Shown: in pieces, positions 47,334 through 63,778 of the stretch
Layout: every line of letters begins with the position of its first letter
Position numbering within the stretch: position 1 is the first letter of the stretch
Origin: Betaproteobacteria bacterium
GTDB taxonomy: Bacteria > Pseudomonadota > Gammaproteobacteria > Burkholderiales > Burkholderiaceae_C
Assembly (NCBI GenBank): GCA_009919175.1
Contig: RGCL01000005.1
Span: 1 to 64,000, forward strand
Length of the DNA: 64,000 nt
Direction: 5' to 3'
Notes under the pieces: model-generated
What the model was told of the DNA's origin: nothing
Database searches by the model: none
Seen by the model: the letters and a program-made list of their open reading frames with translations, nothing else
Translations under genes and position numbers: made by a program

Positions 47334-47440
47334 GTCACTGATGGATTGGGGACAGTGTCACCCAGTTGTCCCCGTCACGCCTGATCCCGCTTTACGATGA
47401 AACCCACGCCGGGGGTGAATCCCGGCTTTGGGATGAAGTG

Positions 47441-48277: not shown

Positions 48278-49027
48278 TCATGTGGTGCCATTGGACTCCA
48301 CACCAAGATAAGCATGAACCATGAGACTTTGACTCACCTCACTGGCCAAGCCAGTGAAAACCACGCGGCCTTTAGACAATACACAAACACGATCGGCAAC
48401 GGTGAGTGCAATTCGGCTTTGTTCTGCCAATATGACCGCCACACCGCCAAAAAATTCAGCTCGACGACCGAAAAATTCATAGATGACCTCGGTCAAAAGT
48501 GGAGATAGCCCCATGCTTGGCTCATCCAATAGTAAAGCCACGGGACGAGCAATCAACGCGCGACCAATGGCCAGCATTTGCTGCTCTCCGCCGCTCAACA
48601 AACCACTGGCAACATCACGCCGACGGGCAATGTTGGGGAAAAGGGAAAATATTCGATCTATCTCTTTATTGAGCTCATGCGCAGGACAACGCCGGGATGC
48701 GAGTCCCGCCAATTGCAGGTTCTCCAACACGGTCAACGGCGCCACCACCTGCCGGCCCTCAGGGACCTGTAACAAGCCAGCGCGGGCAATTTGATCAGGT
48801 CTGCGACCACTGATCTGAACCCCGTTGAGCGTCACCCGCCCTTGCTGTATCGGCAAAAGACCACTGAGCGCACGCAAGGTTGTCGTTTTTCCTGCCCCAT
48901 TTGGACCGAGTAATGCGACCACCTCCCCTGCTTGAACAGACAAACTGAACTGACTGACTGCCTTCACATGACCGTAAGACACTGATAGCTGGTCAATCAT
49001 CAAGGTGGGATTTTGATTCGCACTCAT
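48278..49027 (-). CDS. Branched-chain-type ABC transporter ATP-binding protein LivF
   Basis: The 249-residue ATPase has Walker A GPNGAGKTTTLRALSG, the signature LLSGGEQQMLAIGRAL and Walker B LLLDEPSMGLSPLL, the characteristic LivF sequence. It energises a HAAT-family (Liv) importer with the LivG domain of the fused neighbour. The ATG at 49027 overlaps the fused gene's stop by one base (TGATG). It is last of a minus-strand operon that begins with an SDR gene at 53852. Composition is less GC-rich than the genes to its left. Confidence 0.92.
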   Translation of the reverse strand: MSANQNPTLMIDQLSVSYGHVKAVSQFSLSVQAGEVVALLGPNGAGKTTTLRALSGLLPIQQGRVTLNGVQISGRRPDQIARAGLLQVPEGRQVVAPLTVLENLQLAGLASRRCPAHELNKEIDRIFSLFPNIARRRDVASGLLSGGEQQMLAIGRALIARPVALLLDEPSMGLSPLLTEVIYEFFGRRAEFFGGVAVILAEQSRIALTVADRVCVLSKGRVVFTGLASEVSQSLMVHAYLGVESNGTT

Positions 49028-50763
49028 CACTGACTCACCCCCTGCCCGCCCACGTAGGCGCTGATGACAGCTTCCTCTCGCAAAACACCGTCAGGATCTC
49101 CTGATGCAATCACAAGACCAAAATCCAACACAACCAGACGGTCACAGTACTGACTCATCATGGCAACGTCATGTTCAACCACAATGATTCCCATGCCCTT
49201 GAATAGAAGGGCTGCGATTCGCGCAAAAACATCAGCGCGCTCCTGAGGATCCATACCGGCAGTCGGTTCGTCCAGCAACAAAAGCTTAGGGCTACTTGCA
49301 ACTGCGCGTGCAATTTCAACTCGACGTCGCAGACCATAAGAAAGTTCACCAGCAGAAACATCAGCCAAATGCGCGATGCCATGCTCATGTAGAAGTCGCT
49401 CTACCTCATTGTCCCGCCTGGACATTGCCGGTATTGCTGGGACCGGCACACCTTCATCCATGGAGTGAAGGCCGATGGCAATGTTGTCGCGGACACTCAA
49501 ATCATCGACCAGTCGTATGGTTTGAAAGGTGCGCGAGATGCCTGCGCGTGCCATGCGGTGAGGACTTCCAAATAGGTCTTTCATGGGGCGACCATTCAAA
49601 ACGCCAGAACCACCCGTGGGGTCATATGCGCCAGAGATGACATTGAGCAAGGTGGTCTTACCAGAGCCATTAGGACCAATCACACCCAATAGCTCGCCAC
49701 TGGAACAGGTGAGAGAAACACCTTGGAGCGCATGAATGCCACCAAAGCTCATGGAGATGTTGGTGAGCTCAATGACTGGCTCGCCCCCATGTGCAGAAAG
49801 CGACTGCCTGTACTTTCTGTCGTGCGTCTTTAAAGACGTCTCATCATTGGCGGCAGGTGCTCCCAGAAAAGAAGCATCGGATTCATTGGGTGTCGATGAC
49901 CCATCAAAGACATGTCGACGTCGAATCACATCGCTCACTACACCAATCAGCCCATAGGGGGCAAAAGCCACCACCGTCATGATGATCAAGCCGTTGACAA
50001 TACCCTGATATTCACCAACAACTGTGACCAACTGTGACAGCGTGGACATCACGATGGTGCCCAGCAAAGCACCACCTACGTAGATCATGCCGCCCACCAC
50101 CACCGTTGCCAGCATATGCGCCAGCAATCCGAAATTGAAAAACCCTGGCTCAACAAAACCTGTCACGTGAACGTTCAGCGCGCCAGCCAAACCACACAAA
50201 AGGCCAGCCAAAGCCATGAGCCCGATGCGATAGGCAAAAACATCAATGCCCTGATGACGTGCCATCAAAGCATCCTCTCTCATCGCAACGATAGATAAAC
50301 CCAACCGAGAACGCCGTACAGCCAGGAGCAAAGCCATGGCCAGAACAACGGATCCAACAATAGCCAGGTCTGAGGACGAACGCGGAATGCCCACTCGTCC
50401 TTGTGCTGCGCCGGTCAGTGGGATGTTGAGCACTGCCGCACTGATCGCTTCACTGAACGCAAGCGTGGCAATCGCAAGATAAATGCCGTTAAGTCGTCCC
50501 AGCAAAGCTGCCAATAGCAAGCCAAAGAACATACCAGCCATTGCACCGCCCAAAACAGCCAATGCGAAGGACACGTGGGCATCCAGCGAGAGGATGGTTG
50601 CGGTGTAGGCTCCGACGGCCAATAAGCCCATATGAGGTAAAGCAAAAATTCCCGCATTGAGCAGCACGTAAATGGCCATTGCCACAAGACTAAGCACCAA
50701 GGCACTGCGAGCCGCAAATGCGTAGACGCCAAAGATTTCTAGAATTTGTGCGCTTAATTCCAT
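49027..50763 (-). CDS. Fused branched-chain-type ABC permease and ATPase (LivM-LivG)
   Basis: The 578-residue protein joins a LivM permease (about 1-280, with about eight to ten helices and EDALMARHQGIDVFAYRI as the coupling loop) to a LivG ATPase (about 328-578), through a polar serine-rich linker (about 281-327). The ATPase has Walker A GPNGSGKT at 363-370, the weak signature LSYGLRRRVEIARAV and Walker B LLLLDEPTAGMDPQE. Fusions of this kind occur in some catabolic clusters. The ATG has no strong ribosome-binding site; the livH stop is 18 bases upstream. The ligand need not be an amino acid; context suggests a lipid or aromatic acid. Confidence 0.9.
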   Translation of the reverse strand: MELSAQILEIFGVYAFAARSALVLSLVAMAIYVLLNAGIFALPHMGLLAVGAYTATILSLDAHVSFALAVLGGAMAGMFFGLLLAALLGRLNGIYLAIATLAFSEAISAAVLNIPLTGAAQGRVGIPRSSSDLAIVGSVVLAMALLLAVRRSRLGLSIVAMREDALMARHQGIDVFAYRIGLMALAGLLCGLAGALNVHVTGFVEPGFFNFGLLAHMLATVVVGGMIYVGGALLGTIVMSTLSQLVTVVGEYQGIVNGLIIMTVVAFAPYGLIGVVSDVIRRRHVFDGSSTPNESDASFLGAPAANDETSLKTHDRKYRQSLSAHGGEPVIELTNISMSFGGIHALQGVSLTCSSGELLGVIGPNGSGKTTLLNVISGAYDPTGGSGVLNGRPMKDLFGSPHRMARAGISRTFQTIRLVDDLSVRDNIAIGLHSMDEGVPVPAIPAMSRRDNEVERLLHEHGIAHLADVSAGELSYGLRRRVEIARAVASSPKLLLLDEPTAGMDPQERADVFARIAALLFKGMGIIVVEHDVAMMSQYCDRLVVLDFGLVIASGDPDGVLREEAVISAYVGGQGVSQ

Positions 50764-50781
50764 TGTTGAATATTCATTCGA

Positions 50782-51672
50782 TCAAACACGCTCCAGATCA
50801 TTCGAGGTTTTGAACAATCCACTTGGACGAACAACAAGAAAAAAGAGTAGAAAGAGGAAAACCACCAAATCTCGATAGGACGTCTCAATGTAAGCCACTG
50901 CATATGTAGAAGCTAATCCAATGATCAATCCGCCTATCGCCACCCCCATCACACTTCCAAAACCGCCCACCACCATAGCGGCAATCGCAATCACAAGGTA
51001 GGTATCACCCAGGTTAGAGCTGATGACGTTGAATGCCATGGCAACCAAAACCGCTGCCACTGCGCCCAAGACGCCGGACAAGAAAAACACACCAACGCTG
51101 ACCTTGTCGACGTTGGTGCCTAGCAAAGCTGCAACGTCTCGATTGAAGGCAACGGCCCTAGCCTCACGCCCCCATTGAGTGCGATGAACCAACCAAGCCA
51201 AAAGTACCATCAATGCGGCCGTCAGCACGACGATGGTGACGTCCAGCGTGTTGAATTGCAAAGACCCAAACTGCAAGGTCTGAACTGGATACGCATCGCG
51301 GGGAATGCGCTCCACCATGCCACCCATGGCTTTAGAGGCCAGTTCATCAAGCACCATCAATCCGCCCAGGCTTGAAATGAACGCTGCCAATTGGGTATTT
51401 CGTCGCTTAAGAAGATGGCGAACCAGTATGAAGTAAGCCAGCACGTTGATGAAACCGGCCAAGACAGCAGCCATCGGCAACGCTACCCACAACGGGAGCC
51501 CCACGCGCGCTGTCAAATACCAGGCCAGGACTGCACCCCAGGTAAACACGCCCGCATGAGCAACATGGAAAATTTTGAGGTTCGCCAGAACCAGCCCGAA
51601 GCCAAGGCCATACAAACCGTACACACTGCCCAATACAAGACCGTTGAGTGTTTGTTGAGCCCAAAACTCCAT
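50782..51672 (-). CDS. Branched-chain-type ABC transporter permease LivH
   Basis: The 296-residue permease has eight hydrophobic segments, the family start FWAQQTLNGLVLGSVYGLY and the coupling-loop region REARAVAFNRDVAALLG, with GGFGSVMGVAIGGLIIGL near the C-terminus. It pairs with the LivM half of the fused protein. GGGAG is nine bases before the ATG. It starts 24 bases after the binding-protein stop. Confidence 0.92.
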   Translation of the reverse strand: MEFWAQQTLNGLVLGSVYGLYGLGFGLVLANLKIFHVAHAGVFTWGAVLAWYLTARVGLPLWVALPMAAVLAGFINVLAYFILVRHLLKRRNTQLAAFISSLGGLMVLDELASKAMGGMVERIPRDAYPVQTLQFGSLQFNTLDVTIVVLTAALMVLLAWLVHRTQWGREARAVAFNRDVAALLGTNVDKVSVGVFFLSGVLGAVAAVLVAMAFNVISSNLGDTYLVIAIAAMVVGGFGSVMGVAIGGLIIGLASTYAVAYIETSYRDLVVFLFLLFFLVVRPSGLFKTSNDLERV

Positions 51673-51696
51673 TGCTGGTTCTCCCTCTGCAGTGGT

Positions 51697-52830
51697 TCAG
51701 TTGCCCACGCCGACGATGTCACCATTATCAGCAAAGCGTGAGATCGTTCCTGGTGAGATGGCATCCCCGCTTGGGGTCAAGGCCAATTCCATGATCCCGT
51801 ATTTTTTGATGAGGTCGCCAGTGGATGCAGCCGGAATGGCCGCCTTGAGGTTTTCACCTGTAATGGGCTTGCCTGCCTTCTCAACCTCAAGCGCAGAAGC
51901 TGCAATGAGCCAAGCCACTTGATATCCCACTCCGCTATAGGCTGTAGGTACAGAGTTGAATTTTTGCTTGTAGGCTGCCTCAAATGCAGCCGAGCGCCCT
52001 CCGCCTGGTGCCCAGGCCTGCGGGAAGACCATGCTGGTTGCTGCCTTTCCGGCAATTGTGAAAGTTTGTGGGCTGGTGGCCAAAGTACCTGCAAGCATGA
52101 CGTTTTGCATCCCCACAGCATTCATTTGCTGAATGATGTTGCCTGCTTGCTCGGGAAGAACCGAAAGCACCAGTGCATCAATGTTGGCACTCTTGAGGTT
52201 GGTAATGACTGCAGAGAAGTTGGAGTCTTTGGTAGTGACGTTTTGGGTGGATACATAGCTCACACCCAGGCCATCGAGCGTTGCAGCTGCCAAAGTGGGG
52301 AATGACGGGTTATCTGTGGCCACAATGGCCCCAATGCGCTTTGCGCCCTTGGAGATCAAGTGTTTACCCACCGCACTGGTTGAGGTCTTCAGATCTGCCA
52401 GCCGGAAGGCATAGCCCGCTTTGTTCTCCAGTTGACTTCCAGCGCCGCTGATGAATGCGATCTTTGAATCATTGGCCAAAGGCGCTACAGCTTGACCAAT
52501 CGGGCTTTGGGAGTCACTCACGACGATGGGAAGCTTACGTTGAACGAATTGATTGAAAGAAGTGACGGCTTTGGTGACCTCTGAATTGGTATCAAGCACA
52601 TCCAAAACAATGGTGGTTTTGGTTGGACTGAGAACGCCGGCGCGAGCGATATCGGCCATTGCCATTTCAAAGCCGTTCTTGAAAGGCACGCCAAATGAGG
52701 CTGCTGCACGCCCCGTCAAGTTGCCCAGTAAGCCGACTTTGACTTCAGACGCCATGGAGCCCAGCGGCATTGCTACTGCCAAGGCTATAGCGACATATTT
52801 GCGCAGACTTAGGGATTTAAGTTTTGCCAC
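51697..52830 (-). CDS. Branched-chain-type ABC transporter substrate-binding protein (LivJ/LivK family)
   Basis: The 377-residue periplasmic protein has a signal peptide ending near GSMASEV, then VKVGLLGNLTGRAAASFG, the type I periplasmic-binding fold, and a C-terminal GDLIKKYGIMELALTPSGD. It captures the ligand for LivH/LivMG/LivF. The start is GTG at 52830 behind AAGGAG at nine bases. The ligand is unknown; many family relatives in catabolic clusters bind aromatic or lipid acids rather than leucine. It follows the SDR gene by 71 bases. Confidence 0.88.
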   Translation of the reverse strand: MAKLKSLSLRKYVAIALAVAMPLGSMASEVKVGLLGNLTGRAAASFGVPFKNGFEMAMADIARAGVLSPTKTTIVLDVLDTNSEVTKAVTSFNQFVQRKLPIVVSDSQSPIGQAVAPLANDSKIAFISGAGSQLENKAGYAFRLADLKTSTSAVGKHLISKGAKRIGAIVATDNPSFPTLAAATLDGLGVSYVSTQNVTTKDSNFSAVITNLKSANIDALVLSVLPEQAGNIIQQMNAVGMQNVMLAGTLATSPQTFTIAGKAATSMVFPQAWAPGGGRSAAFEAAYKQKFNSVPTAYSGVGYQVAWLIAASALEVEKAGKPITGENLKAAIPAASTGDLIKKYGIMELALTPSGDAISPGTISRFADNGDIVGVGN

Positions 52831-52901: not shown

Positions 52902-53852
52902 TTAGTCATCGTTGTCAAACGGGTTGGGGACGCGAAACGCGTCAACCATCCCAGCAGTCATGTTCGGCGCCATGCGATCGAGCATGTCGATCGTCCAGCC
53001 ACCTTCGTGATACAAAGTCGAGACAAATTGAGGAGGTGTGAGCAAAGCCACCTCATCGCCGCCAACAAAAAAATCTTGGCCGTTGATGTGCTGCGCTGCA
53101 GGCGTACATAACCAGGTCACGAAGGCTGCAATGGAGTCAGGCGGAGCCGGCCGATCCCAGCCTGCATGCCCACGCTCACCAATCCAGTAACGCCCAAGCG
53201 ACTGAACAAATGGACGCCAAATGCCGGCCAAGTTCTTGGCAAACCAGTCTCCCCCTCCGGTGTTCCCCGCTGTAGCACGAGGACGGATGAGGTTGCATCG
53301 GATGTTGAAGCGGGCTTGTTCTCGTGCGACACAGCGCGTCAATCCAGCAAGCCCCTCTTTGGCAGAGGCATAGGCTGAATTGAACACCATGCCGAGGCCA
53401 GCCTCTGAGCCCGTATTGATGATGACGCCACCGCCTCGTTCGCGCAATAAAGGCACGCCATACTTGATCATTAAAAAGGAAGCCTTGAGGTGACTTCCGA
53501 GGACGGTGTCCCACTGCTCTTCAGTGAGCTTATGAACAGGGTTTCCGCCCCGTAGCCCTGCATTGTTGACGATGATGTCTAGACCACCAAAAGAATCTCT
53601 GGCCGCTTCAATGGTTCGCTCAGCGCCCTCAGCCGTCATGAGGTTTTCGGTCACAGCGATTGCTTGCCCGCCAGCTGCACGAATCTCATCTGTCACAAGT
53701 CCAGCGAGGCTGTTGCCTTGAGCATCCTTACCAAAATCGCTAACTACCACCTTGGCACCCTCTTTGGCCAGGACCATCGCCTCGCTACGACCGATGCCTC
53801 GACCGCTCCCGGTGACCACAGCCACCTTGCCCTCCAGCCTGATTTGATTCAT
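52902..53852 (-). CDS. Short-chain dehydrogenase/reductase, first gene of the Liv operon
   Basis: The 316-residue SDR has VVTGSGRGIGRSEA (cofactor), NNAGLRGG, the serine in INTGSEAGLG and YASAKEG with the catalytic tyrosine and lysine. A longer C-terminal part (about residues 225-316) sets it apart from minimal SDRs and resembles the (3R)-hydroxyacyl-CoA dehydrogenase group. The start at 53852 (MNQIRLEGKVAV) lies nine bases behind GAGGAGG; the ATG two codons earlier (53858) is only three bases from it. The promoter with the palindrome at 53947-53964 drives this gene toward the left. Confidence 0.83.
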   Translation of the reverse strand: MNQIRLEGKVAVVTGSGRGIGRSEAMVLAKEGAKVVVSDFGKDAQGNSLAGLVTDEIRAAGGQAIAVTENLMTAEGAERTIEAARDSFGGLDIIVNNAGLRGGNPVHKLTEEQWDTVLGSHLKASFLMIKYGVPLLRERGGGVIINTGSEAGLGMVFNSAYASAKEGLAGLTRCVAREQARFNIRCNLIRPRATAGNTGGGDWFAKNLAGIWRPFVQSLGRYWIGERGHAGWDRPAPPDSIAAFVTWLCTPAAQHINGQDFFVGGDEVALLTPPQFVSTLYHEGGWTIDMLDRMAPNMTAGMVDAFRVPNPFDNDD

Positions 53853-53922
53853 GTCCATCCGCCTCCTCGTTTGTTTGGAAAAACTGGCCCCGTCAAAGAC
53901 CCCGAGTGCTGTCCATGCCTTA

Positions 53923-53951
53923 ATGATGCGATGCATCGCGCTGTTCGTCAA
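53923..53951 (-). promoter_or_regulatory. Predicted promoter for the SDR-liv operon (TTGACG-N17-CATCAT)
   Basis: On the minus strand TTGACG (53951-53946) and CATCAT (53928-53923) are 17 bases apart, a sigma-70-like layout with four of six matches in the -10. The -35 lies inside the left arm of the palindrome. The same -35/-10 pair, TTGACT-N17-CATCAT, occurs at the other palindrome (59766-59794). Transcription would begin about 64 bases before the SDR start. Confidence 0.5.
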
Positions 53952-53964
53952 CAATTATGTTGAC
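53947..53964. promoter_or_regulatory. Operator candidate: GTCAACA-ATTA-TGTTGAC palindrome, copy 1
   Basis: Two perfect seven-base arms are separated by four bases. The site lies between the divergent SDR-liv operon and the CrtC-like/kinase/SurE operon. Each arm contains TTGAC reading outward, so it overlaps the -35 elements on both strands. A dimeric regulator, for example of the TetR type, binding here could shut off both operons. The regulator gene is not in the window. Confidence 0.65.
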
Positions 53965-54086
53965 TGAAATGGGGTTGCGGGAGTAAGGTGTTACCTGGGG
54001 TCCAAGCCCGGCTTAGTGGAAAACCCGATTCGCCAGGACTTGACCAGACCCCAAGTCCTTCAATTTTTCTAGCAGCGGAGATGTCT

Positions 54087-55094
54087 ATGGTCAAGGAAGA
54101 GGATGCAGAATTTCACCCGCGTGATCCCAAGGATTACGACTGGGCAGAAACCCGATTCATCAGTTTTTCTGTCCCGGAGGAACAGTTGTTTGGCAATGTT
54201 TATGTGCTGGCAAGGCCCAACGTGGGAGCAGTCATTTCGGACGTGACCATACAGAAAGGGTTTTCACGTTTCCCTTATGAAATGGACTTCCATGATCCGC
54301 ACATGCACTTGCCTTGCCCTCCTTCTTTTCGAAAATTCACCTTACGCAATGGCCTAAGCGTGGAAGCTGTTCGCCCTCCTTATGAACTTCATTACTCCTA
54401 TGAGCACAACGGTGGTAATTGCAGTTTTGAATTTGACTTCACCGCAGTGGGCGAACCATTTGACTGCCATGATCCCAATCAAAACCCGCTACTTGGCGAT
54501 ACGACATTCTCTGGCCTGGGTGATCAGTGGCTCAACGGGCACTATGACGTACTAGGACATGTAAAGGGGGAATTGGTGTTGCGTGGCAAGCGCTATGCCA
54601 TTGATAGCTATGACGGCGCAGATCACAGTTGGGGACCACGTAAGGAAGAAGGCATTCGGGCCATGGGTTGGACTGCGGCTGCTTTTGGTCCTGACTATGG
54701 TCTACACACTGTTTTCCACCTTAACCTGAAAAATGGTCAAGTTACGTACGACAAGCTGCGATTTGGTTACGTTGTCGACGAAGGACAAACCTATGGACTG
54801 GTGAGTGCTGAATTGACTGCAACCCGAATTGACATGATTGCAGTTAGTAATCACATCCGCGCAGTGGATGTGCGGGGCAAAGTCCATGAAATGCGAGGTA
54901 CCGCCATTGCAGGGCATCCACAATATGCGATCAATCCATGCCAGGCCGTATTCCAAACCCTATTTCGCTATGAGGTCAACGGTCGGGTAGGTTATGGCGA
55001 AAGTGCAGACTGCTTCGGTCTGGACTATTTGGCTGAGCGCATGTCTGCGTTAGGCCGCTATCGCAGTGGTGTCCCCGCTGCGACCAGTCAATGA
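54087..55094 (+). CDS. CrtC/AttH-like lipocalin-fold protein (DUF7064/7065-like), function unknown
   Basis: The 335-residue protein has no signal peptide or membrane segment. It resembles the two-lipocalin-domain proteins of the hydroxyneurosporene hydratase (CrtC)/AttH group: WAETRFISFSVPEEQLFGN, YELHYSYEHNGGNCSFEFDF, and YAIDSYDGADHSWGPRKE, where histidine and tryptophan are conserved in the family. Such proteins bind hydrophobic ligands and some hydrate or isomerise terpenoids. The start is the ATG at 54087, six bases after GGAG; the ATG at 54081 touches it. It is the first gene of a plus-strand operon with a kinase, an unknown helical protein, SurE and SDR. The assignment is tentative. 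Confidence 0.6.
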   Translation: MVKEEDAEFHPRDPKDYDWAETRFISFSVPEEQLFGNVYVLARPNVGAVISDVTIQKGFSRFPYEMDFHDPHMHLPCPPSFRKFTLRNGLSVEAVRPPYELHYSYEHNGGNCSFEFDFTAVGEPFDCHDPNQNPLLGDTTFSGLGDQWLNGHYDVLGHVKGELVLRGKRYAIDSYDGADHSWGPRKEEGIRAMGWTAAAFGPDYGLHTVFHLNLKNGQVTYDKLRFGYVVDEGQTYGLVSAELTATRIDMIAVSNHIRAVDVRGKVHEMRGTAIAGHPQYAINPCQAVFQTLFRYEVNGRVGYGESADCFGLDYLAERMSALGRYRSGVPAATSQ

Positions 55095-55108
55095 GAGGAG
55101 ACTGATCC

Positions 55109-56323
55109 ATGGCCGCTACCAATTACGCCATCCTGGATGCACCAACGCGCGAGTTCATGGCACACATGCAACTCAAATATCCCACCGAGCGGGAAACCAA
55201 CGAATTGCTGGTTCGTAAGCTCGAACGGCGTACCAGTCAGACCCAGGACTACCATGTTCCAAGGCTTTCAGAGATGGAGCAATGGATTCACGCATTTTTC
55301 ACAGCCAACCTAGACGCCCCCTTTCACATCACTCACCCACGCTGGCTAGCTGGAGGCGCATCCAAGTTACAGGTGCTCTTCGAAATTGAATGGCAACAGG
55401 CTGGGAAGGCGCGTCAGGATCGAATGGTGGTGAGGATGGATCCGGCAGAGTCTCACAATGCCACAAGTCGATTGCGAGAAGCTGAGTTATTGCGTGCGTT
55501 TCGTGGTGTCATCCCCGTGCCTGAAGTATTCTTTGTCGATGAGCAGGCACGTTGGTTCCCAGAGCCCGCGTTGATCTATGCGTTTTCGGACGGGGTCACC
55601 AAACCCAAAACCACTGCTTCAGGCGCGGTCAGCGGCTTAGGCATCCGCTTTGGAGCCGATCTACGAGCCAAACTTGGCCCTCAGTTTGTGGAGCATCTGG
55701 CCAAAATTCATGCTTTCCCAATTGACTCTGCAGGATTTACCACCATGGAGTCACCATCGACAGGCACTACTGAAGCTGCCCAACTCCAATTGAATCGAGC
55801 ACGTCGGGTATGGGAAGAAGATCGCGGAGAAGATTTCCCTTTGATGGACGTGGCCGTTAACTGGCTATCCCGCAACCTTCCCGTTTTGGATCAAGTCAGT
55901 GTGATTCATGGCGACTACCGCAGTGGAAACTTTTTATTTGATGAAGCCAGCGCCCGCATCACCACGTGGCTCGATTGGGAACGTGGTCACCTGGGTGATC
56001 GTCACCGAGACTTGGCCTGGATTACGCAAGCCATGTTTGGCGACCCACGTGATGATGGTCAGGGCTACTACATATGCGGCCTTTTGAGCGAGCAGGAATT
56101 CCATGAGCGCTATCAGAACACGTCAGGACTGGTCATTGACCCTGTGCGATTGCAATGGTATTCGGTGCTCAATTGCTATCAAGCTCTGGTATCAACACTG
56201 GGGAGTTGTTACAGAGTCGTTCGAATGGGCAAGAATCATCAGGATGCGCTGATGGTGGCACTCAAAGCCGAAGCGGCGATGGCAAGCGCACGCCTTCAAG
56301 AAATGCTCATGGAGATTCTCTGA
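55109..56323 (+). CDS. Phosphotransferase of the aminoglycoside-kinase fold (APH/ACAD10-11-like)
   Basis: The 404-residue protein has the kinase-like fold of the APH family: the Brenner motif SVIHGDYRSGNFLFD with catalytic aspartate, and the metal-binding ITTWLDWERGHLGDRHRDLAW. It would phosphorylate a hydroxyl group with ATP or GTP. Bacterial relatives in fatty-acid and steroid degradation clusters resemble the kinase domain of human ACAD10/ACAD11, which phosphorylates 4-hydroxyacyl-CoA before elimination. GGAG lies before the ATG. Its stop overlaps the next start by one base (TGATG). No acyl-CoA dehydrogenase is seen nearby. Confidence 0.78.
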   Translation: MAATNYAILDAPTREFMAHMQLKYPTERETNELLVRKLERRTSQTQDYHVPRLSEMEQWIHAFFTANLDAPFHITHPRWLAGGASKLQVLFEIEWQQAGKARQDRMVVRMDPAESHNATSRLREAELLRAFRGVIPVPEVFFVDEQARWFPEPALIYAFSDGVTKPKTTASGAVSGLGIRFGADLRAKLGPQFVEHLAKIHAFPIDSAGFTTMESPSTGTTEAAQLQLNRARRVWEEDRGEDFPLMDVAVNWLSRNLPVLDQVSVIHGDYRSGNFLFDEASARITTWLDWERGHLGDRHRDLAWITQAMFGDPRDDGQGYYICGLLSEQEFHERYQNTSGLVIDPVRLQWYSVLNCYQALVSTLGSCYRVVRMGKNHQDALMVALKAEAAMASARLQEMLMEIL

Positions 56324-56853
56324 TGTCTGATGTCACCACCAATGCCTTGCGCGGTCTCGTGAAAACCTTGAGTGATGTCGTCGCCCCGGCCATACCGGAG
56401 GATGATCCGCTTGCTTTTCAAGAGCTCAAGATGACCGTACGTTATCTGTCTTTCTGCCGTGAGCGTGTTGAACACCTGTATGCCCGTGCAAGATATGAAT
56501 TGAGTTTTTACAACAAACTTGCTCGCGATTGCAGCCAATTATTAGGGCCAAAAAATCATATGCATGCCGATGGGATGACCGTTCTTTGTAAGTCTGCTGA
56601 TGCCCTGATGAATCAGCCTGGTGCTGCGATTGGGGCTTTGCGTGAGCAAACTCAGGAGCTCATGAGTCGACTGACACATCTGCTTGGCGAAATCGAGGAT
56701 GCCGCAGTATTGTCAAAGGTTGAAAAAGCCATTGTCACTGCTTCAGCTGAAATGACTGCTTTCGAGCGCTCCTGGTATTTGCCACTCAAACTGGAGCGTT
56801 TCCCTGCACAGGTTCGTCCCCTCAAAAACTTCATCCCTATGCACCCTAACTGA
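56323..56853 (+). CDS. Helical protein of unknown function between a kinase and a phosphatase
   Basis: The 176-residue protein is hydrophilic, with no signal peptide, and looks almost wholly alpha-helical; about residues 30-160 are rich in Leu, Arg, Glu and Ala in spaced heptad-like order. Cysteines occur at RYLSFCRERV, ARDCSQLL and VLCKSAD. I recognise no motif of an enzyme. The start overlaps the kinase stop (TGATG, 56321-56325), so the two are probably made in fixed amounts. It might be a small accessory subunit or scaffold for the kinase. Confidence 0.55.
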   Translation: MSDVTTNALRGLVKTLSDVVAPAIPEDDPLAFQELKMTVRYLSFCRERVEHLYARARYELSFYNKLARDCSQLLGPKNHMHADGMTVLCKSADALMNQPGAAIGALREQTQELMSRLTHLLGEIEDAAVLSKVEKAIVTASAEMTAFERSWYLPLKLERFPAQVRPLKNFIPMHPN

Positions 56854-56872
56854 ATCTATAGGAGATTTTGCA

Positions 56873-57691
56873 TTGAACGTATTGATCACCAATGACGATG
56901 GGATCGAAGCGCCGGCCTTGCCAGTCCTGGCACGCGCATTGGCTGATGCAGGACATGATGTGCGCATTGTTGCGCCAAGTGAAGGATACAGTGGCTGCGG
57001 TGCCTCCATAGGCAGCGTGGCTGAAGGCCACCGTGTCCGTGTAGCGCGCGTGCAGCTGGTTGGTGCAGATGACATTCCAACCTTTGCTGTCGATGGACCA
57101 CCTGCTCTCATCGTACTTGCCGCTTTGCAAGGGCGGTTTGGGGTCTGCCCAGATGTGGTGGTCACAGGACCCAATTCAGGTCTCAACCTGGGTCCTTTGG
57201 TGTTGCATTCAGGCACTTTAGGCGCTGCAGTAACGGCTGCATCCAAAGGAGTTCCTGCAATTGCTTTGAGCACTGAAAAGCGCGCTCGCTTTGGATACGC
57301 CTCAGCCAGCCAGTTTTGCCAGCGCCATCTGAGCAGCTTGGTTGAAGCAATGAAACCCAACACTGCCTTGAATATCAATGTGCCGGACCTGCCTATGGAT
57401 CAAATTCAAGGGGTTCGTCATACGCGTCTGGCAACACGTAGCCTGGTTGAGATCCTTTTGCTTGATGAAGATGTAAACACTCAAACGGATTCTGAAACGG
57501 TTCATTTGCGAATTGAACTGGATCACGACGATAGCCGCAACCTGCATAGGCAATGGCGCAGCACGCTAAGCGGTCAAGATGACACCGATGCCGGTGCCAT
57601 AGTGGACGGATTCATTTCACTGACCGTTGTGCATGGAGGCCTAGGCCATGTAGATGGGCATCACCTGCATGCAGTGTTGCAGGCCAATTGA
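56873..57691 (+). CDS. SurE-like 5'/3'-nucleotidase/acid phosphatase
   Basis: The 272-residue protein follows SurE motifs: VLITNDDGIEAPALPVL with the metal-binding aspartates near residues 8-9, VAPSEGYSGCGASIG, and TGPNSGLNLGPLVLHSGTLGAA. The GTPxDC block of E. coli SurE reads DGPPALIVL here, so substrate use may differ. SurE enzymes remove phosphate from nucleotides or small phosphomonoesters with a divalent metal. TTG at 56873 is the start; GGAG is eight bases before it. It follows a kinase-like gene in one operon, so phosphorylation and dephosphorylation of one metabolite is possible. This is not the housekeeping surE context (no pcm or rpoS). Confidence 0.85.
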   Translation: MNVLITNDDGIEAPALPVLARALADAGHDVRIVAPSEGYSGCGASIGSVAEGHRVRVARVQLVGADDIPTFAVDGPPALIVLAALQGRFGVCPDVVVTGPNSGLNLGPLVLHSGTLGAAVTAASKGVPAIALSTEKRARFGYASASQFCQRHLSSLVEAMKPNTALNINVPDLPMDQIQGVRHTRLATRSLVEILLLDEDVNTQTDSETVHLRIELDHDDSRNLHRQWRSTLSGQDDTDAGAIVDGFISLTVVHGGLGHVDGHHLHAVLQAN

Positions 57692-57700
57692 GGATTGATC

Positions 57701-58609
57701 ATGGAAGAACTCAGTTATGTCGGCCGAGTCGTGGTAATTACAGGTTCAGGACGCGGCCTGGGACGTGAATATGCCTTGGCTTTTGCGTCAAGAGGTGCTG
57801 CTGTGGTTGTTAATGATGTCGGCACCACCCTAGATGGCTCTGGTCCATCAAACAGTGAACCTGCGCAAGAAGTTGTCGCCCAAATCCTAAAGTCGGGGGG
57901 GCGCGCCATTGCCCACCATGAGTCGGTGGCAACAGTACAGGGTGCGCAGGGGCTGATTGATGCAGCGATCAATGCGTTTGGCCAAATTGATGCCGTGATC
58001 AACAACGCAGGCGTGCTCAACATGAAGCCCTTTGAAGAGATGACGCTGGAGGGTTTAGAGCGCCACCTGGCCGTTCACGTGAAAGGGAGTTTTTTAGTTT
58101 CCAAGGCTGTATGGCCTCACATGGTCAAACGACAGTATGGACGTATCGTCAATACCATCAGTGGTGGAATTTTTGGATTACCAGGTCTGACCGAATATGG
58201 GCCTGCCAAAGGAGGTGTTTTTGCATTCACCCGCAGCCTTGCTTTGGAAGCTTCAGCACACGGCATTCGCGTCAATGCCATAGCGCCTCAAGGATCGACC
58301 CGCATGCTTCATGCGTCTGCCCTTGATCCAGCTCTGCGTGAAAGTTTGGACAAGCTCATGAAGCCCCATCTGGTGACTCCTGGACCGCTTTATTTGGGTC
58401 ATGAGCAATGTGAGATCAATGGAGAGACTTTGGCCATATCCGGTGGCAAGGTTTGTCGCATCGCCCTGACCTATAACGATGGATTTACAGATGCAGCCCT
58501 CACTCCAGAAATGATTCGGGATCGCCTGGGAGAGGTTCTGGATCCGACTTCCGCACGAGTCTGGACCAGTGCGACCTCACGCTATGAGGCTAGAGCAGCC
58601 AATGGCTAG
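57701..58609 (+). CDS. SDR of the (3R)-hydroxyacyl-CoA dehydrogenase/MFE-2 type
   Basis: The 302-residue SDR has VVITGSGRGLGREYALAFA (cofactor), INNAGVLNMKPFEEM, the serine in NTISGGIFGLPG and YGPAKGG with the catalytic tyrosine and lysine. The pattern, including VVVNDVG after the second beta strand and a C-terminal extension, resembles the hydroxyacyl-CoA dehydrogenase domain of peroxisomal MFE-2 and its bacterial relatives. It oxidises a 3-hydroxyacyl-CoA with NAD. The ATG at 57701 has GAGGA at six bases. It is the last gene of the plus-strand operon beginning at 54087. Confidence 0.84.
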   Translation: MEELSYVGRVVVITGSGRGLGREYALAFASRGAAVVVNDVGTTLDGSGPSNSEPAQEVVAQILKSGGRAIAHHESVATVQGAQGLIDAAINAFGQIDAVINNAGVLNMKPFEEMTLEGLERHLAVHVKGSFLVSKAVWPHMVKRQYGRIVNTISGGIFGLPGLTEYGPAKGGVFAFTRSLALEASAHGIRVNAIAPQGSTRMLHASALDPALRESLDKLMKPHLVTPGPLYLGHEQCEINGETLAISGGKVCRIALTYNDGFTDAALTPEMIRDRLGEVLDPTSARVWTSATSRYEARAANG

Positions 58610-58663
58610 CTCGCTTTGCACCGTACGTAGTCTGTGTTGCGATGCTGCCAGTTGGCAGACTTC

Positions 58664-59587
58664 TTAACCCATCGTATTCAAACGCAGCCCTGCACGAGGC
58701 CAAGCAACTTTGGCTAATACGCCAGTAGAAGATAGGGTGATGAATGCAATTTGAAGATCGCTTCCACCAAAGCAGATGTTGGTGGTGAAATCATCTGGCA
58801 TGGCATGCCGCTCGATTAACTGTCCTTGAGGCGATACCACTGTGATGCCGCCGTGTGGGATGTCCCCCAGACAAATGTTTCCATTGGCTTCAATTGCCAT
58901 AGAGTCAAACATGGAATACATGTTGGAGGCGAAATGCAATCGACCTCGATCCCATGGCATAAAACCGCCCCTTCGGTCTATCTGGCCTGGCGCAATGATG
59001 TCATAAGCCCAGATTCGACCTGTCCAAGATTCAGAGACATACAACACACGTTGATCTGGTGATAGTCCAATTCCGTTGGGGCCTTCTAGTGGATATATGA
59101 CTTGGCGAATCCGCTTTCCATCGGTGCTGGCGTAAAACACAGCGCCACGGTCACGCTGACGACCCACCATTTTTCCGCTATCGGTGAACCACATGCCACC
59201 GTGTTGATCAAAAATCAAATCATTGGGTCCTCGCAAGGGGATACCCTGACAATCACGGTAGAGGATTTCAGACTCTCCCGTATCTAGGTCAACCGCTTCT
59301 ATCCAGCCACCTGCGTAATCCGGTGGTGGTAATCCTGGTATGAGTCTGTTTTCGATGCGCGCAAAAGTAAAGCCTCCGTTGTTACAGACATAGCATCGGC
59401 CATCAGGTCCTATTGCCGCACCGTTAGGTCCACCACCAAGTTGCGCAACCACCGTGACCTGACCGTCAGGACTCACACGCGTGAGTGTTTGACGCTGCAT
59501 CTCGACGAGAAGGACACTGCCATCGGACATGGCAATGGGGCCTTCAGGAAATTCAAGATCGCTGGCAAGGACTTGATATTGAGTCAA
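58664..59587 (-). CDS. SMP-30/gluconolactonase/LRE family beta-propeller hydrolase
   Basis: The 307-residue protein has the SMP-30 layout: DLEFPEGPIAMSDGS at the start (metal-binding glutamate), GGGPNGAAIGPDGRCYV, GPNDLIFDQHGGMWFTDSG with asparagine and aspartate ligands, and GPNGIGLSPDQRVLYVSES. Family members are calcium- or zinc-dependent lactonases. The start I prefer is a TTG at 59587 behind AGGAG, because it matches homologues beginning just before DLEFPEGP; a GTG at 59716 would add 43 residues without signal character. Its promoter region is the one with the second palindrome, shared with the thiolase-like genes. Confidence 0.8.
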   Translation of the reverse strand: MTQYQVLASDLEFPEGPIAMSDGSVLLVEMQRQTLTRVSPDGQVTVVAQLGGGPNGAAIGPDGRCYVCNNGGFTFARIENRLIPGLPPPDYAGGWIEAVDLDTGESEILYRDCQGIPLRGPNDLIFDQHGGMWFTDSGKMVGRQRDRGAVFYASTDGKRIRQVIYPLEGPNGIGLSPDQRVLYVSESWTGRIWAYDIIAPGQIDRRGGFMPWDRGRLHFASNMYSMFDSMAIEANGNICLGDIPHGGITVVSPQGQLIERHAMPDDFTTNICFGGSDLQIAFITLSSTGVLAKVAWPRAGLRLNTMG

Positions 59588-59752
59588 GGTGGCCTGCTCC
59601 TGAGTTTGATGGAATAGATACCCGATGCCGAGCTCGGGCGCATTAGACAGCTTGGCCGTCAGCCCGATTTGCAACACACCAGTAAGCCAAGACGGCTTAA
59701 AACTGAATTTGCGCACCAGGATGCCCTTACGTTAACCAGTGTCTAAAGTCTT

Positions 59753-59770
59753 GTCAACAAGTATGTTGAC
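59753..59770. promoter_or_regulatory. Operator candidate: GTCAACA-AGTA-TGTTGAC palindrome, copy 2
   Basis: This has the same arms and spacing as the site at 53947 and again sits between divergent genes (SMP-30-like protein to the left, thiolase-like operon to the right). On the minus strand it gives a perfect TTGACA -35 element (59757-59752). Both copies of the palindrome are confined to the lower-GC part of the window. Confidence 0.65.
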
Positions 59771-59794
59771 TAAGCGTAATATAGTAGGCATCAT
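59766..59794 (+). promoter_or_regulatory. Predicted promoter for the thiolase-like operon (TTGACT-N17-CATCAT)
   Basis: TTGACT at 59766-59771 lies in the right arm of the palindrome. CATCAT at 59789-59794 follows after 17 bases, the same -10 as the SDR-liv promoter. Transcription would begin near 59801, about 60 bases ahead of the TTG start I prefer for the first gene. Confidence 0.5.
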
Positions 59795-59860
59795 GCTAAC
59801 TAGTTCACTGGTTGCGACTTTGTGCAGCTCAGTGCCAATCATTCAAACTTGGAGCTTTGC

Positions 59861-60943
59861 TTGGCGAATTCAAGACCTCAAGTCTTCATCGAATCGGCAG
59901 CGCTTTATATGGGCTGGCGAGATGAAACTCGAAACCTTACAGAGCTGATTTTTGATACGGTTCGTCATGCACTGGATGACAGTCCCCATGGACTCGAAGG
60001 CATTGAGTCGGTGGTGTTGGCAGCTCATGACTTGGTGGACGGGCGCTCTCTCTCCAGCATGGTGACCGCCCCGGCTGCAGGAGCTTATCTGCGCGACGAA
60101 ACCCGTTTTAGCGACGATGGTGCTGTTGCACTGGCTGCTGCCATTGCACGCATCGAAGCAGGCGAGGCTAAACGGTCTATCGTCGCTGCTTGGGGGCGTG
60201 CCAGTGAACATGACGTGAATGCCGTATCTATGTCCATGTTCGATCCGTTTATTCAAGGCCCTATGGGCCTGAACGAGATTCAGGTTTCTGCCATGCGAAC
60301 CCAGTCATGGCTGCACGCAGGTGGCGCTTATGAGCATCACCCCAGTGCCATCGCCAGACGGCGTTCAGCGGTTGCAGCCAATGAACGGGCTGTCCATTCA
60401 CCTTCAGGTATGTCCCGTGCTTCGTTTCCTCTAACCCCCGAGGATTTGCCTGTGTGGGCTGATGTAGTTGCCGCAGTGGTCTTGTCCTCAGAAGGGGGAG
60501 CCATACAGATCAAGGGCCTGGGCCAAGCCTCTGAACCCTACGCGATCGGTGACCGCAACCTACTTGCCATGCCGAGTGCACGCCAAGCCTGTGATCTGGC
60601 CTTGAAAGAGGCGGGGTTACGTATTCGAGATCTGGACTTATTTGAAATCGGAGGATTGACCTTGATGGATGAAGCCATTGTGCTGGAAGCCATTGGCCTC
60701 GCCGATCCTGGACAAGGTCTCTCTGTACTAGCCAATCACCCGAACGTCAATCCTTCGGGTGGATGCTCAGCAGGTTTTTGTGATCCAGCTATGGGATTGG
60801 TCCGCGTGGTCGAGGCCGCGCTTCAATTACAAGGAAGAGCTGGCGCAATTCAGCGGCCTGGTGTTCGTCGTGCGCTCGCCGTCTGCCCGGCAGTTGTTGC
60901 AGCACAAACTCATACCGCGATTGTGATGGAGCGTGCATCATGA
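59861..60943 (+). CDS. Thiolase-superfamily protein lacking the catalytic cysteine (lipid-transfer-like), first of pair
   Basis: The 360-residue protein has the thiolase core but no nucleophile: where active thiolases have CxSG it reads SDDG in RFSDDGAVALAAA. The histidine block is replaced by LDLFEIGGLTLMDEA, and the C-terminal loop is NPSGGCSAGFCDPAMG. It cannot be a normal thiolase and may be the non-catalytic partner of the next protein, whose start overlaps its stop by four bases. I chose the TTG at 59861 with GGAG six bases ahead; a GTG at 59822 is possible and would add 13 residues. Substrate or ligand is unknown, probably an acyl-CoA. Confidence 0.75.
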   Translation: MANSRPQVFIESAALYMGWRDETRNLTELIFDTVRHALDDSPHGLEGIESVVLAAHDLVDGRSLSSMVTAPAAGAYLRDETRFSDDGAVALAAAIARIEAGEAKRSIVAAWGRASEHDVNAVSMSMFDPFIQGPMGLNEIQVSAMRTQSWLHAGGAYEHHPSAIARRRSAVAANERAVHSPSGMSRASFPLTPEDLPVWADVVAAVVLSSEGGAIQIKGLGQASEPYAIGDRNLLAMPSARQACDLALKEAGLRIRDLDLFEIGGLTLMDEAIVLEAIGLADPGQGLSVLANHPNVNPSGGCSAGFCDPAMGLVRVVEAALQLQGRAGAIQRPGVRRALAVCPAVVAAQTHTAIVMERAS

Positions 60944-62118
60944 GTCCAGTTGCAATCGTTGGCGTGGGTCAGACGACCTATCGACGCAGCCACCCTGAGA
61001 TGAGCTCTAGGGAGCTGATCTGGACAGCAGCCCGTCAAGCTCTTGATGACGCTGGGATGTCCATGGATGACATTGATGTCGTCATGGCTGGTGTGGCTCC
61101 CGATGCGCTGGCAGGCGAGGCTGCACTGGATCGCACTGGCATGATGGGACACGGTATTCCATACATGCGCATCAACACGGGCGGTGTCACAGGATCATCG
61201 ACAGTCTTTGCAGGGGCCTCTTACATCCGAGCTGGTCGAGCACGAGCCGTGCTGGTGTTTGCCCTGGAGCGCATGGGTCAGGCAACTTCATCGCAGCAGG
61301 TATTCAACACCATCTTTGATCCAATCTATGAAAAAGATTTTCCGCTGACCACCATCACCATGGCGGCATTACGGGCGTCGATGCTGATGCGCTTGTATGG
61401 CTACACAGACCGTCACTGGGCGGAGATCGCTGCACGCAATTACCGGCATGCAGCTCGAAATCCACTAGCCCACATCCGGCGCGAAGTCACCTCGGACGAG
61501 GTGATGCAATCCCCACTCTTGGCTTGGCCCATCCATCGCATGGAAGCCTGTCCCATGTCTGAAGGTGCTTGTGCGATGGTGCTGGTCGATTCAGACCATG
61601 CAGCTGGCCGCAACCCGGTATGGATACAAGGCTACGCATCAACCTCAGATTGCTATGCCATGGGTGACCGCATTCATCGGCCGGACGCCAATCTGGTTGA
61701 TCTCTTGTCTCTGCGTCTTTCTGCTCAAAAGGCATACCAGCAAGCTGGCGTCACCAATCCACGCAAGCAAATCAGGGTCTTTGAGCTTTACTCTGCGTTT
61801 TCCAGCGCTGAAGCCATGGCCTACCCTGCTCTTGGATTGTGTACGTCGGAAGAGGGGCCAGCTTTTGTTGAACAACAACTGGTAGATCCGACATTGCCAG
61901 TTTTCAATCCTTCTGGCGGACCTCAGGGTGCCAACCCCGTGAGCGCCACTGCGATGGTTCGTATTGCTGAATGTGCATTGCAAGTGCGAGGTTCACTGAA
62001 GACGCACCAGGTTGACGGAGTGGAGCGCGCAGTGGCCACAGGCCAAGGCGGTGCCACTCAGTTCTCGACAGTGTGCGTGCTAGGCCGTCATCCAACTACC
62101 GGAGGAGAGATTACTTGA
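60940..62118 (+). CDS. Thiolase-superfamily protein with repurposed active site, Ltp2-like
   Basis: The 392-residue protein starts VAIVGVGQTTYRRSHPEM, the usual thiolase/SCP-x opening, but the cysteine position reads GVTGSS and the histidine block reads FELYSAFSS, with tyrosine in its place; the last loop is NPSGGPQGANPVSATAM. This is the kind of change described for Ltp2, the retro-aldolase of steroid side-chain breakdown, which works with a DUF35 protein. A DUF35 gene follows with a four-base overlap. Retro-aldol cleavage of a beta-hydroxyacyl-CoA is therefore a fair inference, not a proof. Confidence 0.78.
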   Translation: MSPVAIVGVGQTTYRRSHPEMSSRELIWTAARQALDDAGMSMDDIDVVMAGVAPDALAGEAALDRTGMMGHGIPYMRINTGGVTGSSTVFAGASYIRAGRARAVLVFALERMGQATSSQQVFNTIFDPIYEKDFPLTTITMAALRASMLMRLYGYTDRHWAEIAARNYRHAARNPLAHIRREVTSDEVMQSPLLAWPIHRMEACPMSEGACAMVLVDSDHAAGRNPVWIQGYASTSDCYAMGDRIHRPDANLVDLLSLRLSAQKAYQQAGVTNPRKQIRVFELYSAFSSAEAMAYPALGLCTSEEGPAFVEQQLVDPTLPVFNPSGGPQGANPVSATAMVRIAECALQVRGSLKTHQVDGVERAVATGQGGATQFSTVCVLGRHPTTGGEIT

Positions 62119-62591
62119 ATTCAACTGAACTGATCACCATCCAGGGTCGCTGGGGTTTTGACTACACCTACTTTGCAGGCGAAGTGGCCACCCGTTTCTT
62201 TAATGAACTCAAGGAGAACCGACGCATCATGGGATCGCGATGCCCATCCTGCAAACGTCTCTTGGTTCCAGCTCGCTCGTTTTGTGACGCATGCATGGAA
62301 CGCACCACTGATTGGCAAAGCGTAGGTCCTCAAGGAACACTGGAAACGTTCACCATCATCACTACAGCTTTCCCAGGCTTGCCTGCACCTCCCATCATCA
62401 TGGCCTATGTGACGCTAGATGGGGCCGATACTGCGCTGATCAATGTTGTACGTGGAGAGGATCTCAGCGACATCCAGGCCGCAGCGAAGCGCCTCAACTC
62501 CCAACCTAGAGTGACCGTTCGCTTTGTTGAAAATCCCAAAGGACGAATCACCGATTTTTGGTTTGAATTGCTTCCCAAGACTGGGGGATGA
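62115..62591 (+). CDS. Zinc-ribbon/OB-fold DUF35 protein, probable partner of the thiolase-like protein
   Basis: The 158-residue protein has a rubredoxin-like zinc ribbon, CPSCKRLLVPARSFCDACM (four cysteines), followed by an OB-fold (GPQGTLETFTIITT, YVTLDGADTALINVV). DUF35 proteins bind acyl-CoA and form complexes with thiolase-like enzymes, as in ChsH2-Ltp2. The start is TTG at 62115, with GGAGGAG a few bases ahead, overlapping the upstream stop (TTGA). About 55 residues precede the ribbon, more than the usual short helical hairpin. Confidence 0.85.
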   Translation: MNSTELITIQGRWGFDYTYFAGEVATRFFNELKENRRIMGSRCPSCKRLLVPARSFCDACMERTTDWQSVGPQGTLETFTIITTAFPGLPAPPIIMAYVTLDGADTALINVVRGEDLSDIQAAAKRLNSQPRVTVRFVENPKGRITDFWFELLPKTGG

Positions 62592-63778
62592 CCATGAGTA
62601 ACAGTGGGATCTCGGGCAAAGCTGCCATTGTGGGCGTCGGAGAAACAGATTACATGCGAGGCACTGATCAGTCCATTCTTCAAATGATCTTGTCGGCTAG
62701 CATGGCTGCAATCAAAGATGCGGGATTGAAACCATCGGATGTCGACGGCATCATTCCACCGCCGGGATTTGTGGCCTGGGATGAGATTGCTGCCCATTTG
62801 GGTGTGCCTGATGTCCGCTACACCGCATGCCCACAGATGGGCGGGGCGAGTCCGACTGCAGCTTTGATCAATGCCTCCATGGCCATCGCAACCGGCATGG
62901 CCAATGTGGTGTTAATCACCATAGGCTGGAACGGATATTCAGCCATTCGTCCGCGCCCTGATGCACGGCCTAACCGTCGCCGTTTTTCTGCTGCATTCTT
63001 TGATGTGGTCAAAAACTATTACGCACCCTATGGCTTGCGTTCAGCTCCCTGGTGGTATTCACTTTATTTGCAGCGCTACGTCAAGATGTATGGTGTCCCA
63101 CCAGAAGCAGCCGGTGAAGTGGCGTTGGCTTGTCGTGCACACGCGCAGCTCAATGACAAGGCCCTGATGCGAGGACGCCCCTTGACCATGGAAGAGTATC
63201 TTGCCTCGACTTACATCAGTGAGCCATTGCGTAAGCTCGATTGCTGTGTCGAGACTGACTGCGCCGCTGCCGTCATTGTGACCACACCAGAGCGAGCGCG
63301 AGACATGCCACACACACCGGTGATTGTGATTGGTGGTGCAGAGGGTCATCCAGATCGTCCAGATGAACTGATTAACCGCAAAGATGTGCTCGATCTCGGG
63401 CTAGACCGCGCAGCGCCCCGAGCCTTTGCCATGGCGGGCGTGAAACCAACCGACATGGACTTTCTCCAAATATATGATTGTTTTACCCATGTCGTATTGC
63501 TTGAACTTGAAGCGCTGGGGCTTGCTCCTCGTGGCGGGGCAGCTGACTTCGTTAAGAATGGGAACATCCAACTCGGCGGAAAGTACCCGCTCAACACACA
63601 TGGTGGCCTCATGTCCCAAGGCCATTGTTGGGGTATGAACCATATTGTTGAAGCCACGCGTCAACTCCGACATGAAGCAGGAGCTGCACAAGTTCAGAAC
63701 TGCGAACTTGGGCTAGTGACTGGTTACGGCGATCTAGGCGATGCCAGTATTGCCATTTTGGCAAGGAGCACCTCATGA
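62588..63778 (+). CDS. Second Ltp2-like thiolase-superfamily protein
   Basis: The 396-residue protein starts AAIVGVGETDYMRGTD. The cysteine position reads MGGAS in CPQMGGASPTAALI, the histidine block reads LQIYDCFTHV with tyrosine, and the C-terminal loop keeps a histidine in MSQGHCWGMNH. It therefore lacks the thiolase nucleophile but keeps a different set of possible acid/base residues from its neighbour at 60940. It overlaps both its neighbours by four bases and is followed by its own DUF35 gene, so this is a second thiolase-like/DUF35 pair, perhaps acting on a later or shorter intermediate. Confidence 0.78.
   Translation: MTMSNSGISGKAAIVGVGETDYMRGTDQSILQMILSASMAAIKDAGLKPSDVDGIIPPPGFVAWDEIAAHLGVPDVRYTACPQMGGASPTAALINASMAIATGMANVVLITIGWNGYSAIRPRPDARPNRRRFSAAFFDVVKNYYAPYGLRSAPWWYSLYLQRYVKMYGVPPEAAGEVALACRAHAQLNDKALMRGRPLTMEEYLASTYISEPLRKLDCCVETDCAAAVIVTTPERARDMPHTPVIVIGGAEGHPDRPDELINRKDVLDLGLDRAAPRAFAMAGVKPTDMDFLQIYDCFTHVVLLELEALGLAPRGGAADFVKNGNIQLGGKYPLNTHGGLMSQGHCWGMNHIVEATRQLRHEAGAAQVQNCELGLVTGYGDLGDASIAILARSTS

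Follow-up and report, generated by a model that had tools for sequence, protein, structure and literature searches.

The lower part of the cholesterol pathway is repressed by KstR2 (PDB 4w1u, 4w97), a TetR-type protein whose operator has the consensus AnCAAGnnCTTGnT. According to PMC8700777, KstR2 represses CoA-ester catabolism and has HIP-CoA as its effector; the same paper describes EdcR of Caenibius tardaugens, a TetR protein that represses a cluster for estradiol degradation in which several promoters carry a palindrome. BkaR (PMC3920632) and AotM (PMC11351531) are TetR regulators as well, each of which binds a short palindrome in its own promoter.

The locus described here carries four palindromes of the form GTCAACA-N4-TGTTGAC and, behind the fourth, a gene for a TetR-family protein. 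This protein is related to KstR2 by profile (E 2.6e-29), although the palindrome differs from the KstR2 operator as judged from the consensus given above. The locus resembles the EdcR system in that one degradation cluster has a probable TetR repressor and repeats a palindrome in several of its promoter regions, but the operator proposed for EdcR, TnnCnnTACnAnTnGTAnnGnnA, covers the −10 box and not the −35 element (PMC8700777). The core bound by BkaR, GTTANTN4ANTAAC, is different (PMC3920632), while the AotM site, TGTCAATGTTGACA, has the half-site TGTCAA in common with the cluster operator; its half-sites, however, lie 2 bp apart, and the gene on which AotM acts, under oxidative stress, encodes an oxidoreductase (PMC11351531). 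No published account of a GTCAACA-N4-TGTTGAC operator was found in the accessible parts of the open-access literature, a comparison that lies outside the mycobacterial TetR motifs presented in the figures of PMC4482099.

On the evidence of sequence, both palindromes of the window very probably belong to a set of four operators bound by a single TetR-family repressor, the gene of which lies at C183:76158-76814, a reading to which we assign a probability of about 0.87. The system is of an ordinary, well-known kind, and its regulator-operator pair is clean and portable. With one site in each promoter-sized gap and the pair present in two phyla, it is a good testable regulon and no surprise in principle.

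Palindromes and gene layout of the cluster

The window is the whole stretch of 64,000 nucleotides that was analysed. It corresponds to C183:1-64000, where C183 is a contig of 78,243 bp in an assembly of 2,931,436 bp and 248 contigs. The palindromes and the main genes around them are as follows.

53947..53964, no strand: operator 1, GTCAACA-ATTA-TGTTGAC, exact; sole palindrome of a 207-bp gap, with the SDR/liv unit to its left and the DUF7064 (CrtC-like)/APH-kinase/SurE/SDR unit to its right
59753..59770, no strand: operator 2, GTCAACA-AGTA-TGTTGAC, exact; sole palindrome of a 105-bp gap, with the SMP-30 gene to its left and the thiolase-like/DUF35 unit to its right
C183:72943-72960, outside the window: operator 3, exact match
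C183:74215-74232, outside the window: operator 4, one mismatch
48278..52830, minus strand: liv-type (branched-chain-amino-acid) ABC transporter genes, behind operator 1; Pfam ABC_tran, BPD_transp_2 and Peripla_BP_6 for three of four ORFs, the 578-aa ORF at 49027-50763 lying outside the Pfam scan
52902..53873, minus strand: SDR oxidoreductase, the nearest gene on the left side of operator 1 (Pfam PF00106)
54081..58609, plus strand: DUF7065/DUF7064 (CrtC-like) protein, APH-type kinase, 177-aa protein without a Pfam match, SurE and SDR (Pfam); the unit right of operator 1
58664..59716, minus strand: SMP-30/gluconolactonase-like protein, left of operator 2 (Pfam PF08450)
59822..63778, plus strand: two thiolase-like proteins, an OB/DUF35-type protein (62073-62591, outside the Pfam scan) and a third thiolase-like protein, right of operator 2 (Pfam, ORFs)
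C183:76158-76814, 12 kb right of the window: TetR-family gene, 218 aa, TetR_N and TetR_C_24
L013:14981-15886, L013 being the right part of the contig: IS3-type transposase gene, directly after the TetR gene and near the contig end

The initial annotation had described two exact palindromes, each in a divergent promoter region of a lower-GC catabolic cluster. Both are exact and flanked by divergent genes, no other exact 18-mer occurs in the window, and GC content in 3-kb steps is 0.51–0.56 from 48 kb onward compared with 0.57–0.66 before. When up to three mismatches were allowed, the window held six matches against 2.71 expected, a loose count that is not significant alone because 8 of 100 shuffles also reached six. 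That annotation had also proposed a whole-genome scan for the 18-mer, in which many copies in unrelated promoters would speak against a common regulator. At up to one mismatch the assembly held four places, three of them exact, which all lie within 20.3 kb of C183, and no copy beyond the cluster, in unrelated promoters or elsewhere. Allowing two mismatches gave 12 places, the eight additional ones all on other contigs; these represent background, since the reversed-pattern control likewise totalled 12.

Intergenic DNA between 47366 and 76814 amounts to 848 of 29,449 bp, a total that rests on the chosen start codons, as longer ORF-tool starts shrink some gaps. The start of the SDR gene at 52902..53873, for example, was picked by eye, and its longest ORF-tool start would fall inside palindrome 1. 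Only four gaps in this region exceed 71 bp (207, 105, 119, and 101 bp), and each contains one palindrome, so that all 26 genes from livF (48278) to TetR (76814) stand behind a site. At the left edge, an SDR gene (47366-48253) convergent to livF has no such site before it.

Beyond the window, the thiolase-like unit continues with a ChsH2-type OB protein and an enoyl-CoA-hydratase-like ORF, the latter outside the Pfam scan and 37% identical to an annotated one. The genes left of site 3 thus comprise ChsH2-type OB, enoyl-CoA-hydratase-like, two acyl-CoA dehydrogenase, nitronate-monooxygenase-like, two AMP-forming ligase, and crotonase genes. To the right of site 3 come a CaiB-type CoA transferase, site 4, an FMO gene, the TetR gene, and the IS3-type transposase gene; the FMO N-terminus gave a SnoaL-like match under the cut-off. 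The label CrtC-like is that of the initial annotation for the DUF7065/DUF7064 protein, for which Pfam gives the DUF names. By eye, the 578-aa ORF at 49027-50763 seems to be a liv permease and ATPase fused in one frame.

This gene content, which includes the liv transporter, SDRs, and hydratases, suggests that the cluster takes up a compound that is oxygenated and perhaps cyclic and breaks it down by CoA-dependent steps. Judging from the FMO, SMP-30, CoA ligase, CoA transferase, acyl-CoA dehydrogenase, and thiolase/DUF35 genes, the substrate may be an oxygenated cyclic ketone or acid. The IS3-type transposase gene beside the TetR gene and the lower GC content suggest that the cluster is an acquired island. 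A close copy elsewhere was sought via the FMO, for which the best match among 200 family genomes had 42% identity.

The TetR-family gene and the candidate promoters

A TetR-type regulator gene with its own site had been predicted to the right of position 64000, and the gene at C183:76158-76814, behind site 4, fits that prediction. From the 49-bp gap between them, FMO and TetR presumably form one operon. The protein matched the helix-turn-helix domain PF00440 (TetR_N) with 55.1 bits (cut-off 24) and the C-terminal ligand-binding domain PF17932 (TetR_C_24) with 95.5 bits (cut-off 26.4). It fell well under every NCBIfam cut-off shown: FadR, the best-scoring model, gave 61.6 bits, far below its cut-off of 200, and KstR 30.3 bits against 280, so that neither was an equivalog match; the NCBIfam results contained no KstR2 model. 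The nearest solved chains by profile were 3vpr, 3dcf, KstR2 (4w1u, 4w97), and 2ibd, with 3vpr and 3dcf the nearest among FadR-type and other solved TetRs (3vpr, 3dcf, 3whb). We take 3vpr to be PfmR, an acyl-CoA-responsive regulator. In its own genome the next match of the TetR protein had an E-value of just 1.3e-18. A scan of genome contigs with this protein gave a single weak relative of 28% identity.

Relatives of the TetR protein were collected in several samples. Among 200 family genomes the best were in G082 (39% identity, E 2.9e-42) and then G175 (33%, 3.1e-27). On plasmids, relatives occurred in Sphingopyxis FD7, Sphingobium xenophagum, and Rhodococcus ruber; a search with the G082 protein added one in Rhodococcus sp. 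008. A profile of five (A1) retrieved G316 and G222 from 398 phylum genomes at ~1e-78 to 1e-77, the next match being at 2e-34; profile searches within two orders added G805 and G688 (order of G316, 249 genomes) as well as G875, G978, and G987 (order of G222, 296 genomes). The recognition helix [DE]RA[TS]xYYY was present in 10 of 10 subfamily proteins and in none of 22 outgroup TetRs. Five long-branched outgroup rows fell inside the clade of the ten in the tree, which for this reason does not settle their strict monophyly.

In the initial annotation, outward-facing TTGAC arms formed −35 elements and the two stronger promoters shared TTGACG or TTGACT-N17-CATCAT. The arms and the shared pair are as described there, and the two candidate promoters are the following.

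53923..53951, minus strand: candidate promoter 1-left, TTGACG-N17-CATCAT, 4/6 TATAAT, −35 overlapping operator 1, toward the SDR and liv genes
59766..59794, plus strand: candidate promoter 2-right, TTGACT-N17-CATCAT, 4/6 TATAAT, −35 overlapping operator 2, toward the thiolase-like unit

The left arm of site 3 gives TTGACA-N17-TACCAT and is similar to both. At a spacing of 17, the hexamers opposite the arms are CATCAT (left) and GTAAGG (right) at site 1, TAACGT (left) and CATCAT (right) at site 2, TACCAT (left) and TTAACC (right) at site 3, and TACTTT (left) and CAATCT (right) at site 4. Three of the eight arms have four of six TATAAT matches (P ~0.004 if the arms are independent), while the remaining five have one to three matches, i.e., poor −10 elements. 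At ten subfamily loci, with sites of 0–2 mismatches, nine of 70 arms had four matches at N17 compared with 4, 4, 5, and 0 at N15, N16, N18, and N19. These hexamers and spacing counts make the promoter reading fair at three arms, namely the two promoters named initially and a third, and weak at the others: the fair arms are the left one at sites 1 and 3 and the right one at site 2, and the reading fares poorly in the DUF7064, SMP-30, CaiB, and FMO-TetR directions.

In the proposed mechanism, a TetR dimer would bind GTCAACA-N4-TGTTGAC, the TTGAC arms of which overlap −35 elements. The bound repressor would block RNA polymerase at the SDR-liv, DUF7064-kinase-SurE-SDR, SMP-30, thiolase/DUF35, crotonase-ligases-dehydrogenases, and CaiB units. 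Because operator 4 precedes FMO-TetR, the repressor may also limit its own synthesis. By analogy with relatives such as KstR2, release would be caused by a pathway intermediate, most likely a CoA thioester, or by the substrate itself. Some TetR-family proteins activate, and the poor −10 elements on five of the eight arms could mean an activated promoter. The protein might thus act at the palindromes as an activator, or as both repressor and activator, but this is unlikely, given that at three arms the operator overlaps the −35 of a fair N17 promoter, where a bound protein would block RNA polymerase.

Co-occurrence of the palindrome and the TetR subfamily

Subfamily genes were chosen by protein similarity and not by palindromes. 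Nine of ten had a site of 0–1 mismatch within 8.5 kb, compared with none of 22 outgroup TetR genes (Fisher 3.6e-7), a count in which G316 and G805 are not independent, their proteins being nearly identical, and in which the 8.5-kb limit was our choice; at 8.0 kb it becomes eight of ten with the loss of Rhodococcus ruber (8.1 and 8.2 kb). The span covered was 10.3 kb at the own locus and 14.4 kb at G082. The outgroups, which were 22 of the 25 best-ranking genes and came from the family of the window only, had no site within 8.5 kb at two mismatches either, and the reversed pattern was absent within 8.5 kb of all 32 TetR genes. The three left out (G104, G116, G107) had no site of 0–3 mismatches in their 1.5-kb flanks.

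Genome-wide, 12 of 15 sites with 0–1 mismatch in six subfamily genomes lay in the TetR neighbourhood (own genome, G000, 4/4; G316 1/1; G805 1/1; G688 4/5; G082 2/3; G222 0/1), and the three stray sites, in G688, G082, and G222, were all inside ORFs. The reversed pattern occurred three times in the five subfamily genomes other than the own one. Fifteen genomes without the subfamily held 13 sites in ~67.5 Mb at this level versus seven of the reversed pattern. Among the later finds, all three sites of G978 share a contig with the TetR gene, at distances of 0.2, 25, and 38 kb; G987 had its one site 16 kb from the TetR gene, and G875 all three on the plasmid bearing its TetR copies, one of the three being already in the set. 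At two mismatches these genomes (G978, G987, G875) had 18, 8, and 11 sites versus 9, 3, and 1 reversed. The annotated plasmid loci, four in number, held 17 sites with 0–2 mismatches, of which 16 were intergenic (3.6 expected) and the remaining one overlaps the TetR gene of Rhodococcus sp. 008 at its end. The pooled logo of 20 sites reads W-GTCAACA-N4-TGTTGAC-W. The counter-example is G222, whose protein clearly belongs to the subfamily and has its helix, yet the 47 kb around the gene contain no site of 0–2 mismatches.

Together with the sites, the gap layout, and the TetR gene, this co-occurrence in other bacteria lends support to the initial proposal that the SDR-liv, CrtC-like/kinase/SurE/SDR, SMP-30, and thiolase-like/DUF35 units are under one regulator. 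The palindrome alone does not name that regulator, as five family genomes carry one without a subfamily TetR. The exact palindrome occurs once in each of five of 199 other family genomes (L057:9062, L058:9710, L059:10074, L060:9556, L061:3351), compared with two of 200 for the reversed control. Judged by eye, an MFS-type gene adjoins each of the five sites, and genes resembling racemases or hydantoinases are present at several; a GntR gene lies within 1.8 kb of the site in L059 (GntR and FCD domains) and L061 (GntR). These genomes hold no close relative of the TetR protein (best E 2.5e-20), and, the neighbouring genes also differing, the five palindromes were rejected as further sites of the cluster TetR. 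Given such neighbours, the same 18-mer probably serves a second, unrelated regulator there.

It could be asked on these grounds whether another regulator, e.g., of the GntR/FCD family, owns the palindromes of the cluster and the TetR gene is a bystander. We regard this as more doubtful than activation, as the palindrome accompanies the TetR subfamily at nine of ten loci and outgroup TetRs at none of 22, and the Pfam scan of 23 of the 26 cluster proteins (all except the 578-aa liv ORF, the first OB gene, and the first enoyl-CoA-hydratase gene) identified no GntR gene and no other regulator. For the TetR protein, by contrast, there are palindromes in the promoters of its putative targets and one before what is presumably its own operon, namely four sites with the fourth ahead of FMO-TetR. 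That the palindromes are due to chance, or are remains of a mobile-element repeat, is scarcely credible: the adjacent IS3-type transposase gene and lower GC suggest acquisition and the loose window matches are near chance, but 0.015 exact sites are expected per 2.93 Mb under a first-order Markov model of C183 against three found, the flanks inspected at sites 1–4 have no sequence in common by eye past the palindrome itself, and the same palindrome lies near related regulators in another phylum.

Reach of the regulator-operator pair

With the TetR protein as the likely repressor, unnamed degradation genes become one predicted 26-gene regulon with a regulator and an operator, and its substrate can therefore be sought by a simple reporter. 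The helix signature and the operator can be used together to search for related catabolic islands. The TetR-operator pair is a candidate orthogonal repressor-operator pair for biosensors.

Acyl-CoA genes (CoA ligases or others) were present at eight of the nine other subfamily loci, by annotation or ORF reading, and the enzymes were otherwise different; the G222 locus had no acyl-CoA gene among the ORFs listed. The differing enzymes indicate that the regulator-operator pair is kept while its targets differ. We lean slightly toward viewing the pair as a portable cassette, in which the TetR subfamily with helix [DE]RA[TS]xYYY and the operator WGTCAACA-N4-TGTTGACW were recruited repeatedly for CoA-based catabolic clusters of differing content, here, in sphingomonads and other Pseudomonadota, and on Rhodococcus plasmids. 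The operator would have been kept while the regulators drifted to ~35% identity and the target genes were exchanged.

A CaiB-FMO-TetR block in common with Rhodococcus sp. 008 (47, 41, and 32% identity) was considered and given little weight, because the genes are not adjacent there and FMO relatives of 41–43% also occur on Rhizobium and other plasmids. The distant genomes G082 (L053/L021) and G688 (L079) have in common a ring-hydroxylating oxygenase, a CoA ligase, two enoyl-CoA hydratases, an NTF2-like protein, an epimerase-like protein, and a subfamily TetR; in each of the two genomes, palindromes precede the genes for the oxygenase, the ligase, and the epimerase-like protein. The Sphingopyxis FD7 plasmid pSFD01 (L126, L050) carries four subfamily TetR copies amid several degradation-type clusters with TonB receptors; one copy is broken and adjoins a gene for an IS3 transposase.
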